A DNA stretch of 32,548 nucleotides from an uncultured Erysipelotrichaceae bacterium. GTDB taxonomy: Bacteria; Bacillota_I; Bacilli_A; Erysipelotrichales; Erysipelotrichaceae. Location of the stretch: the NCBI GenBank assembly GCA_949744505.1, contig CATJXY010000020.1:1-32548 (forward strand), written 5' to 3'. The notes below the pieces were generated by a model. The model did no database searches, was not told the DNA's origin, and saw only the letters and a program-made list of their open reading frames with translations. The translations under genes were made by a program, and so were the position numbers. Shown here piece after piece: positions 2,264 through 32,455 of the stretch (its first letter is position 1; each line of letters opens with the position of its first letter).

Positions 2264-2341
2264 TAAAGATGAAATCTTTATCTTTTCGTGATAAAATTTT
2301 CCCATGATAAAATAAAGAAAGGAATTGTGCTTTATAAAGCA
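2264..2341 (+). promoter_or_regulatory. pncB leader with stacked symmetric elements
   Basis: Upstream of pncB are three nested elements: an inverted repeat TAAAGAT-GAA-ATCTTTA (2264-2280), a direct repeat of TGATAAAAT (2289-2297 and 2305-2313, 16-nt period), and a perfect 14-nt palindrome TGCTTTATAAAGCA (2328-2341) just after a Shine-Dalgarno-like AAAGGA (2318-2323). TAAAAT copies may serve as -10 boxes. The layout suggests operator control of the NAD salvage operon, for example by a niacin-responsive repressor, but I cannot match a known operator. Confidence 0.35.
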
Positions 2342-2360
2342 TGACAATGGAATTATATAC

Positions 2361-3830
2361 ATGCAAATGAATCGGTCTATTAATGCTGAAAGAAATCTTA
2401 CAATGCTGATGGATTTCTATGAATTAACCATGGCAAATGGGTACTTATTAAAAGGAAAAAGAGAAACAAAAGTTGTCTTTGATATGTTCTACCGCCAAAA
2501 TCCGGATCAAGGTGGTTTTGTTATTGCCGCCGGATTAAAACAATTTTTAGAATATATTGAAAATATGCACTTTGATGAAGAAGATATTCGTTATTTGGAA
2601 AATAAAAAAATATTTGATCCTCAATTCATCGAATATTGTCGAAATTTTAAGTTCACGGGAGATATCTATGCGGTAGAAGAAGGAACGATCGTCTATCCAT
2701 ATACTCCAATTGTTACAGTTGTAGCTCCGATATTGGAAGCTCAATTAATAGAAACGATGCTTCTATTAACTATTAATCATCAATCTTTGATTGCGACTAA
2801 AGCTAATCGAATTGTCAGAGCAGCAAAAGGACGAACAATAATGGAATTTGGTGCTCGAAGAGCACAGGGTTACGATGCTGCCATCTATGGTGCGAGAGCT
2901 GCTTTTATCGGGGGAGTCAATGCCACTGCAACAGTGAGTGCCGATCAATTATTCAATGTTCCTGCCGTAGGTACAATGGCTCATAGTTGGATTCAAGTTT
3001 TTGATTCGGAATATGAAGCTTTCAAAGCATACGCTGAAATTTATCCAAATGATTGTACTCTTCTCATTGATACTTACAGTATTTTAAAAAGTGGACTTCC
3101 TAATGCGATCCGGGTAGCCAAAGAAATACTTGAAGTTAAAGGATACAGATTAAAAGGTGTTCGTATTGATTCCGGAGATCTGGCTTATTTTTCAAAGAAA
3201 ATAAGAGAGGTTTTAGATAAAAACGAAATGCAAGACTGTAAAATCGTTGTTTCAAATAGTATCGATGAATTTCTTATTCAATCTTTACTTGAGCAAGGGG
3301 CATGCATAGATAGTTTTGGTATCGGAGAACGTTTGATTACTTCAAAATCAGAACCTGTTTTCGGAGGAGTATATAAACTTGCAGCAATTGAGGATAATGG
3401 TGAATTTATTCCTCGAATAAAAGTTTCGGAAAATACTGAAAAAATCACTAATCCGGGATATAAAAAACTATATCGAGTCTATGATCAAAACAATATCGGC
3501 AAAATTGATGTAATCGCTTTAGCAGATGAAATTGTTGATTATTCCACTAAACTTGTTGATCAAAATAAACCATGGAAACGATACTCAATTGAGAAAGGAT
3601 GGAGAATCGAGCCATTACACAAGCAAGTTGTCAAAAATGGAAAATTAAGCATTAAATTACCTGACGATATTACAATCCGCCAAAGAACTCTTGATAATTT
3701 AAAAACTGTATGGAATGAAGAAAAGCGTTTTTGTAATCCTCATACTCATTATGTTAACTTAAGTGAAAAAATGTATGATTTAAAAATGAAAATGTTAAAT
3801 CAATTTTCTCAGGAGGATTTGCATGAATAA
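2361..3830 (+). CDS. pncB: Nicotinate phosphoribosyltransferase
   Basis: About 489 aa. It converts nicotinate, PRPP and ATP to nicotinate mononucleotide, the first step of Preiss-Handler NAD salvage. Family landmarks are TMLMDFYELTMANGY near the N-terminus, EFGARRAQGYDAA (the phosphoribosyl-binding region), the SNSID segment and the VRIDSGDLAY motif. The frame extends up to a TTG at 2325, but that codon sits only 1-2 nt from AAAGGA. I prefer ATG 2361 (ATGGA 9 nt upstream) or ATG 2367; the exact start is uncertain. The 3' end overlaps the next gene by 8 nt, so the two are co-translated. Enzymatic identity is confident. Confidence 0.93.
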   Translation: MQMNRSINAERNLTMLMDFYELTMANGYLLKGKRETKVVFDMFYRQNPDQGGFVIAAGLKQFLEYIENMHFDEEDIRYLENKKIFDPQFIEYCRNFKFTGDIYAVEEGTIVYPYTPIVTVVAPILEAQLIETMLLLTINHQSLIATKANRIVRAAKGRTIMEFGARRAQGYDAAIYGARAAFIGGVNATATVSADQLFNVPAVGTMAHSWIQVFDSEYEAFKAYAEIYPNDCTLLIDTYSILKSGLPNAIRVAKEILEVKGYRLKGVRIDSGDLAYFSKKIREVLDKNEMQDCKIVVSNSIDEFLIQSLLEQGACIDSFGIGERLITSKSEPVFGGVYKLAAIEDNGEFIPRIKVSENTEKITNPGYKKLYRVYDQNNIGKIDVIALADEIVDYSTKLVDQNKPWKRYSIEKGWRIEPLHKQVVKNGKLSIKLPDDITIRQRTLDNLKTVWNEEKRFCNPHTHYVNLSEKMYDLKMKMLNQFSQEDLHE

Positions 3831-6378
3831 AATAATTGTATACGGAGGAACATTTAATCCTTGTACCTTAGCACATCTCAATGCTATTCAATGTGCTAAA
3901 AAAGCAATAGAAAATAATGATGATAAAATTATCAGCTTATTTCTTCCAACCGGAGATAAATATATAAAATCGAATAAAATACCCTCTAAAATGCGCTGTG
4001 ACATGATTGACAAAATGATTCAAGATGTTCAAGACGAATCAATTAAGTTATGCAAACTCGAAGTTGACAGTCCAAAGCAACCTAGAACTCTTCAAACATT
4101 AACACAAATACAAGAAAACGCAAAAGACTGGGAAATCTATTTTCTTCTTGGTGCTGATAAACTCTCTCAATTTGATCGTTGGTATAAATCGAACGAAATC
4201 TTAGAGAAATTTCATTTGATTGTTTTAAATCGTACAAATAAAAAAAATGAACTTTTTAATTTAAACGAAATACTTCAACGTGATTTTTTCCAAAAATTCT
4301 CAGACCGAATTATCATTGCCGAGAATAACAATGAATTTTATGATTCTATCTCTTCCACACTCATCAGAAAAAACTTTTATCAAGCACCAATAAAAGAAAT
4401 AAATACATGGCTCTCACCTTCTGTGATTAAATATATCAAAGATAATGGACTGTATTCAGAAAGTATTGAAAAAGAACCATTAAAAATAGCATTAGCACAA
4501 ATGAAAGTTATTCCGGGAAAACCCTCTGTTAATTTTGAAAAATTGAAAGAAATGGTAAAACAAGCAAAAAACAAAAATGCTGATATCATCATTTTCCCAG
4601 AAATGTGCATAAGTGGTTATATGCTTGCAGACAGATGGTATGATGAATCCTTTTGTGATTATCTTCTCAGCTTTAATGACAAAATTAAAGAATTATCTGA
4701 CGGCATTGGCATTATTTGGGGAAATATAGACAGTCGCTTAGATCTGAATGGTCGTGATGGAAGGAAATCCAGATTAAACTGTGCCTTTTTTGCCTATAAC
4801 AGAGAATGGTGTAATCATAAAAGAAGCTCAATTCTGTTAAAACCCGGCATCGAAGTCAAAACATTAAATCCGGATTATCGTATCTTTGATGATTCACGAT
4901 ATTTTCTTTCCTCCATTGAAGTTGTACAACAGCTTATGGATCATCCTGATAGCAAACAAATGGTCGATCCTTTCATTTTCAACAAAAACGGATCTTGCTA
5001 TTTAATAGGATTAGAAATTTGTGAAGATATGTGGTCTCAAGAATACAACAGCATTAACCCTACTGCACTTCTTACAGAATCAGGTTGTGATTATATAATT
5101 AATATATCTGCATCACCATGGAATCTTTCTAAAGAACACTTAAGGCAAGAGCGGATAAAATTTCAAGCAAAATCATGTGGTGATTTATTTTGTCCTTTTA
5201 TCTATGTCAATGCCGTAGGAATGCAGAATAATGGAAAAAATGTCTTAATGTTTGATGGAGAAAGCTCTGTATATGATAAACATGGAGATTTACTTTTGAG
5301 CTGTCGTGATGATTTTGAAGAAGATTTTAAAATCATGGATTTCAAAAAAAAGACAATTCATCAGCAAAAAGAAAACAATAATAAATTACTTAATTGTTTG
5401 ATCCATGCTATAAAAGAATTCGATGAGCAACAATTTAATAAAAAAATGAAATGGATCATAGGACTTTCCGGTGGTCTTGACAGCAGTATCAATGCTGCCC
5501 TCTTAACAATTGCTTTGGGTTCTCAAAGAGTTATCGGCTATAATCTAGCTACTAAATATAATAGTAATACAACAAAAAACAATGCTAAAATCCTTGCTGA
5601 TAAATTAAATATTCCTATTATCAATGGTAATATCGAACAAATCGTGGATGGTACAATCAATACCTGCAATCTCTATGGTTATTCAGATGATAAAATTTCA
5701 ACTTTGGTTTATGAAAATATTCAGGCACGCGTTCGTGGTCATCTTCTTTCTACCTTTGCACAAATTGAAAATGCCGTCATATGTAATAATGGAAATAAAG
5801 TAGAAATTGCACTAGGATATTGTACCCTTTACGGAGATACGATTGGTTGTCTCTCTCCATTAGGAGATTGTACAAAAGTACAATTATTTGAACTTGCATC
5901 CCAAATCAATACCCGATTTGGCGACGAAATTATCCCTTCTAATCTAATTCCAGAAATACACAACAATGAAGTAATCTGGGAAATGCCACCCAGCGCAGAA
6001 TTAAAAGAAGCTCAAAAAGATCCTATGAAGTGGTTCTATCACGATTGGCTCATATCACAGCTGACAGAATATCCCGGATATCGTATCGAAGAAATTTTAT
6101 CCAAGTATCTTGATCAAAGCATTTATGATACAGAAATAGGACAATGGATTAAATATTATGGATTAGATAAAGAACCACAAGAATTTATCAAAGATATCGA
6201 ATGGGTTCTCAGACAACTAAATCTTTCTGTTTTTAAACGAATCCAAATGCCTCCTATTATTACTATCAGCCAAGGAAGTTTTGGTTTTGATTACCGTGAA
6301 AATCAAACAAATTATGAATATACAGCTTCATATAATAAATTGAAACAACAAATTTTAGCGAAACAAAATAATTTATAG
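3823..6378 (+). CDS. Fused nicotinate-nucleotide adenylyltransferase / glutamine-dependent NAD synthetase
   Basis: An 851-aa three-domain protein. Residues 1-~213 are a NadD nucleotidyltransferase: GGTFNPCTLAHL at 8-19, where the usual first His of HxGH is Thr (TxAH), and ISSTLIR at 176-182. Residues ~220-505 are a nitrilase-type glutaminase with the Glu-Lys-Cys triad visible as FPE (E260), KTLNP (K346) and EICEDMW (C400). Residues ~540-851 are an N-type ATP pyrophosphatase NAD synthetase with SGGLDSS (549-555). It would adenylylate nicotinate mononucleotide and then amidate deamido-NAD using glutamine-derived ammonia. The fusion joins two consecutive pathway steps and follows PncB with an 8-nt overlap; AGGAGG sits 5-6 nt before the ATG. 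I see no frameshift scar at the junction (residues 205-222). Confidence 0.92.
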   Translation: MNKIIVYGGTFNPCTLAHLNAIQCAKKAIENNDDKIISLFLPTGDKYIKSNKIPSKMRCDMIDKMIQDVQDESIKLCKLEVDSPKQPRTLQTLTQIQENAKDWEIYFLLGADKLSQFDRWYKSNEILEKFHLIVLNRTNKKNELFNLNEILQRDFFQKFSDRIIIAENNNEFYDSISSTLIRKNFYQAPIKEINTWLSPSVIKYIKDNGLYSESIEKEPLKIALAQMKVIPGKPSVNFEKLKEMVKQAKNKNADIIIFPEMCISGYMLADRWYDESFCDYLLSFNDKIKELSDGIGIIWGNIDSRLDLNGRDGRKSRLNCAFFAYNREWCNHKRSSILLKPGIEVKTLNPDYRIFDDSRYFLSSIEVVQQLMDHPDSKQMVDPFIFNKNGSCYLIGLEICEDMWSQEYNSINPTALLTESGCDYIINISASPWNLSKEHLRQERIKFQAKSCGDLFCPFIYVNAVGMQNNGKNVLMFDGESSVYDKHGDLLLSCRDDFEEDFKIMDFKKKTIHQQKENNNKLLNCLIHAIKEFDEQQFNKKMKWIIGLSGGLDSSINAALLTIALGSQRVIGYNLATKYNSNTTKNNAKILADKLNIPIINGNIEQIVDGTINTCNLYGYSDDKISTLVYENIQARVRGHLLSTFAQIENAVICNNGNKVEIALGYCTLYGDTIGCLSPLGDCTKVQLFELASQINTRFGDEIIPSNLIPEIHNNEVIWEMPPSAELKEAQKDPMKWFYHDWLISQLTEYPGYRIEEILSKYLDQSIYDTEIGQWIKYYGLDKEPQEFIKDIEWVLRQLNLSVFKRIQMPPIITISQGSFGFDYRENQTNYEYTASYNKLKQQILAKQNNL

Positions 6379-32381: not shown

Positions 32382-32455
32382 GCGAGTGTAGTTCAATGGT
32401 AGAACTTCAGCCTTCCAAGCTGACTACGTGAGTTCGATTCTCATCACTCGCTCCA
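32382..32455 (+). tRNA. tRNA-Gly (anticodon TCC), CCA encoded
   Basis: Acceptor GCGAGTG pairs with CACTCGC (one G-C/T-A set throughout), discriminator T and CCA (32453-32455). D arm GTTC-AATGGT-AGAAC, anticodon arm TCAGCCTTCCAAGCTGA with TCC, variable loop CTACG, T arm TGAGTTCGATTCTCA. TCC reads glycine GGA/GGG. Confidence 0.97.

Follow-up and report, generated by a model that had tools for sequence, protein, structure and literature searches.

NadD and NadE are well known enzymes and are usually essential. In a draft genome of an uncultured, gut-type Erysipelotrichaceae bacterium, both appear to be encoded by one open reading frame, on a stretch of 32,548 nucleotides that was analysed as a whole and is called the window below. 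Is this frame a genuine fusion, and if so, how did it arise and what would it do for NAD synthesis? One chain with both enzymes is a natural experiment on whether joining successive steps alters flux, product release or fidelity.

Structure of the fusion gene and its neighbourhood

The nadD-nadE fusion gene (3823-6378, forward strand) is one uninterrupted frame of 851 aa plus stop codon, with no internal stop. Three Pfam domains were found on the chain, all above cut-offs: CTP_transf_like at residues 6-183, CN_hydrolase at 221-514 and NAD_synthase at 541-735; NCBIfam models agreed. Translation would start from ATG 3823, which lies 3' of an AGGAGG ribosome-binding site (3811-3816) within the 3' end of pncB. 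The NadD domain (residues 1-211, 3823-4455, TIGR00482) carries the motifs GGTFNPCTLAH (8-18), LLGADK (108-113) and ISSTLIR (176-182). It is followed by a linker of eight residues (SESIEKEP, 212-219, 4456-4479), in which there is no NadE start codon having a ribosome site. The glutaminase domain (residues 220-514, 4480-5364) belongs to PF00795, and the NAD synthetase domain (residues 541-851, 5443-6378; PF02540, TIGR00552, AF2 model with Foldseek) has the P-loop GLSGGLDSS at 547-555.

The gene pncB (2325-3830, forward strand), encoding nicotinate phosphoribosyltransferase that converts nicotinate to nicotinate mononucleotide (NaMN), matched NF006695 with 676 bits (cut-off 469) and three NAPRTase Pfam domains. 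Its start may be ATG 2361 instead of TTG 2325. A preliminary description of the window had claimed a single uninterrupted NadD/glutaminase-NadE frame with limits 1-213 and 220-851, overlapped by pncB by 8 nt. The frame and the overlap (pncB end 3830, NadD ATG 3823) were confirmed, and the limits proved correct within a few residues. Third-position GC was similar across pncB and both halves of the fusion (0.23-0.24), and no Rfam element, an NAD riboswitch included, was found near the pncB-fusion operon. Elsewhere in the window, genes of a GHKL histidine kinase and a LytTR response regulator (89-2160) are divergent from pncB, and a tRNA is located at 32382-32452.

Junction of the two enzymes

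The NadD part terminates at its usual place (...VIKYIKDNGLY211), and the NadE part opens with LKIALAQ at residue 220, the usual first strand. A suitable comparison is locus L050, from another Erysipelotrichaceae draft genome (the family member G245, as inferred from identical coordinates of matches). It too has pncB, nadD and nadE in that order, but as separate genes, with the nadE start placed on the nadD stop (ATGA) behind GGAGGA. Compared with L050, the nadD stop, the nadE ribosome site and the nadE start codon are all absent at the fusion junction. There is no Shine-Dalgarno-like word in the 120 nt upstream of the NadE part, and the only in-frame ATG or GTG codons near the junction are at 4423, inside NadD, and at 4501, past the first NadE strand; a single-base error is therefore unlikely. 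The fusion matched at one place in its genome.

We regard it as very unlikely that two overlapping genes like those of L050 were joined into one frame by an error of assembly or sequencing. The genome is a draft of 70 contigs, and frame +1 holds ATG 4445 and TTG 4466 upstream of NadE, so that one lost base could merge two frames. However, neither codon is preceded by a Shine-Dalgarno-like word, whereas the unfused nadE of L050 has GGAGGA; the end of NadD and the beginning of NadE share one frame just eight residues apart; and the other recognised window genes that were scanned gave full-length matches. We hold it to be still less probable that the NadD half of a genuine fusion is a passenger or has an altered role, with deamido-NAD supplied by another enzyme such as an undetected NadD, NadM or the truncated NadD on YqeK described below. 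The HxGH position of the fused NadD reads TLAH, with T at the first residue and A at the third (T being common to the whole operon clade described below), and a NadD stump is kept and translated within YqeK in many species. Against this, the fused NadD scored above the cut-off of the NadD equivalog model TIGR00482 (125.9 bits, cut-off 112.45), covering the whole model at residues 6-211, and all invariant and near-invariant columns of a 28-row alignment are retained, including (H/T)xxH and ISSTxIR. In the stump, both the central third, where the GxD/W region lies, and the ISSTxIR motif are missing, and no other NadD-like match was revealed in the genome.

Structure prediction of the NadD half alone, from the 28-row alignment, gave an AF2 model with pLDDT 93.6 and pTM 0.90, of which the best solved-structure match was Bacillus subtilis NadD (1kaq).

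Glutaminase-NadE half

The C-terminal part scored 110.5 bits against TIGR00552 (nadE, cut-off 63.65). With the whole-protein NAD synthetase equivalog PRK13981 it aligned over residues 218-827 with 281 bits, below the cut-off of 479, so the fused NadE represents a diverged subfamily; domain order and motifs nevertheless agree. The nitrilase-type triad (E260, K346 and C400) aligned with the columns of relatives and of solved NAD synthetases. It is lost in many relatives and retained in the fusion. In the full-length AF2 model the NadE part matched NAD synthetases 5kha, 3n05 and 4f4h by Foldseek. NadD was poorly placed (pLDDT about 45) because its alignment is too thin, and the relative placement of NadD and NadE is not fixed by the model.

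A shrunken glutaminase, with about 175-310 aa left, the triad lost and the synthetase loop intact, was seen at L014, L015, L050, L051, L054-L059 and L060-L075. These NAD synthetases of the same subfamily apparently returned to free ammonia.

NAD synthesis in the genome

Five PF01467 matches were found in the 97.9%-complete genome and were judged by sequence to be the fusion, CoaD, a TmcAL-like protein, RibF and a YqeK stump. The last is a 291-aa frame on contig G000:C50, composed of a C-terminal YqeK and an N-terminal part whose NadD match (24 bits) is confined to the first third of that enzyme. The possibility of a second nadD, raised in the preliminary description, thus came down to this truncated copy: no second complete NadD was found by PF01467 in the genome, of which about 2% may be missing. 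The fusion itself ends in glutaminase-synthetase and has no HD-domain YqeK, which is encoded separately on that contig.

PF02540 gave one match in the genome, the fusion. NadC (QRPTase_C) was not found in the genome, while 12 of 14 control genomes were positive, which makes salvage of nicotinate the likely route to NAD. A PncA-like protein of 173 aa is also encoded. NAD is probably made from nicotinate or nicotinamide through PncA, PncB and the fusion.

Distribution of the fusion

The fusion is known from one draft genome. Other genomes were searched for NadD and for NAD_synthase, and no second NadD-NadE fusion appeared among the matches listed for 272 family, 157 order and 395 class genomes. 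In the 272 family genomes, the longest NAD_synthase frame among the matches listed, after the 859-aa frame of the fusion, was 767 aa (NadE-Nudix), and the longest other NadD frame was 531 aa (NadD-DUF2804). Subfamily search P0001 found this NadE subfamily in at least 48 of the 157 order genomes, none of the others having NadD attached, and the NadD matches listed for the order and class genomes included no other NadD-NadE. None of 42 relatives in named genome contigs was fused. No phage record covered 80% of the fusion query; one plasmid did, and there nadD and the NAD synthase gene are separate neighbours. Unfused, adjacent nadD and nadE are common in Erysipelotrichaceae. No NadD-NadE fusion was found in the open literature, and an earlier report in subscription journals is possible. 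The fusion is a real new combination of two known enzymes, rare and set in a well-defined evolutionary background.

Several long frames were inspected and set aside. Actinomycetota frames of 899, 792, 932 and 783 aa (L042, L069, L071 and L074) owe their extra N-termini to GC-rich stop-to-stop readings without NadD, and NadD frames of 614 aa (G439) and 476-481 aa (family f14) are other fusions.

Other combinations were also observed. NadD-NrtR fusions of 472-481 aa are located downstream of nadE (L172:1559-3001, L174:1522-2949 and L176:1369-2784); Nudix plus the NrtR winged helix was confirmed by Pfam in L172 and L174, and frames of similar length occur elsewhere in family f14. They attach an NAD enzyme to a regulator of the NAD pathway. 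At L168:352-2193 a GltD-like Fe-S/FAD oxidoreductase is fused to a T-type NadD and its gene overlaps a glutaminase-NadE gene. NadE with a C-terminal NUDIX domain was seen at L009 (767 aa), NadD with a TM1586-type nitroreductase domain adjoining nadE at L032 (419 aa), and NadD with DUF2804 adjoining an ammonia-type nadE at L158 (531 aa), where a lost stop codon is possible.

Origin of the fused NadD

The usual NadD in Erysipelotrichaceae is the N-terminal half of NadD-YqeK, in frames of about 335-395 aa with the motif FDPxHxGH. In several genera NadD adjoins nadE, and YqeK there either stands alone or has kept a short remnant of NadD. We read 16 such remnants, one from the source genome and 15 from other family genomes (loci G000:C50 (L005, L111, L133), L119, L120, L122, L126, L127, L130-L132, L137, L139, L141, L143-L145 and L147). 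Stumps thus occur in at least 16 genomes of the family, nearly all of which encode NadD beside nadE instead. Where a remnant can still be aligned to the NadD model, roughly positions 72-150 of the model have no counterpart in it, and the ISSTxIR motif is missing. Mean pairwise identity among 15 remnants was 0.22 in the N-terminal half versus 0.36 in the HD half, whereas the two halves were equal in eight intact NadD-YqeK proteins (0.38 versus 0.37). Such a pattern is that of decaying sequence, or at the least of sequence under relaxed constraint. Genome G019, 98% complete and from the genus of L050, has a YqeK stump, yet no NadD or NadE among the matches listed; its operon perhaps lies in a gap of the assembly.

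The remnants did not group together in the YqeK tree: YqeK of the source genome was placed with an intact NadD-YqeK (95/94) and YqeK of the L050 genus with two others (98/92). This scatter makes repeated decay likely. A single origin of the stumps was not favoured, since the tree requires about four changes, at least two of them by firm branches.

The FNPxTxxH motif is carried by 11 of the 51 NadD domains that were placed in a tree. These 11, the fused NadD among them, formed one clade (99/93), and each of the other ten adjoins nadE. This supports, without proving, descent of the fused NadD by fusion from a pncB-nadD-nadE operon. Within such an operon, nadD would have lost its stop and nadE its start, and the fused NadD would have taken over the duty of NadD-YqeK, whose NadD half is now the stump.

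Proposed function

We conclude with high confidence that the gene encodes a bifunctional NaMN-to-NAD enzyme (trifunctional when the glutaminase is counted), which was fused in a compact operon and replaces the NadD of NadD-YqeK. NadD would adenylate nicotinate mononucleotide to deamido-NAD, the glutaminase would free ammonia from glutamine, and the synthetase would amidate deamido-NAD to NAD. PncB would be translated just upstream with overlapping ends. Because a genuine fusion lies next to pncB, two neighbouring genes are predicted to encode the path from nicotinate to NAD, as the preliminary description had proposed.

The main gain is probably that both enzymes are supplied at a fixed 1:1 ratio, which would carry further the close coupling already given in an operon whose genes overlap, with channelling a possible extra. 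In our opinion it is rather unlikely that the fusion, in addition, channels deamido-NAD from the NadD site to the NadE site or retains it between them, with little of it released. The enzymes are consecutive, the linker has just eight residues, and nadD and nadE are repeatedly adjacent in Erysipelotrichaceae; but NadD is poorly placed in the full-length model, and a survey of metabolic fusions records that gene fusion by itself gave no channelling in tests (PMC4921024). Similarly doubtful is a broader proposal, in which a committed NaMN-to-NAD enzyme holds deamido-NAD bound or nearby, the choice of NadD partner acts as an evolutionary switch, and YqeK stumps are kept for a residual role such as nucleotide binding. 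If true, NadD would switch between YqeK, for removal of faulty products, and NadE, for the next step.

For the bifunctional enzyme that we prefer, the change of partner may itself matter. In JCVI-Syn3A the YqeK half of NadD-YqeK hydrolyses faulty NadD products (PMC9426524), so relocation of NadD to NadE would, as a hypothesis, end its physical tie to a product-clearing YqeK. One family thus holds a before-and-after series: NadD on YqeK, NadD beside NadE with a YqeK stump, and NadD fused to NadE.

Comparison with known systems

Type F NadE-Gln (PMC3376133; PDB 5kha, 4f4h and 3n05) resembles the fusion in that a single chain combines glutaminase and synthetase and carries both nitrilase triad and P-loop, but the fusion adds a complete N-terminal NadD and scores under the PRK13981 cut-off. 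Its NadD shares fold and conserved residues with known NadD (TIGR00482; PDB 1kaq) and differs in TLAH for HxGH and in the attached NadE. NadD-YqeK (NF005519/PRK07152; PMC9426524), the usual family form, likewise has NadD in a two-enzyme chain; there the partner is a hydrolase proposed to clear faulty NadD products, whereas in the fusion it is the next pathway enzyme, and the source genome's own NadD-YqeK has a decayed NadD half. The overlapping pncB-nadD-nadE operons of Erysipelotrichaceae (L050, L051, G026, G033 and G230) have the identical gene order and overlapping ends, but nadD and nadE are separate in them and fused in the source genome.
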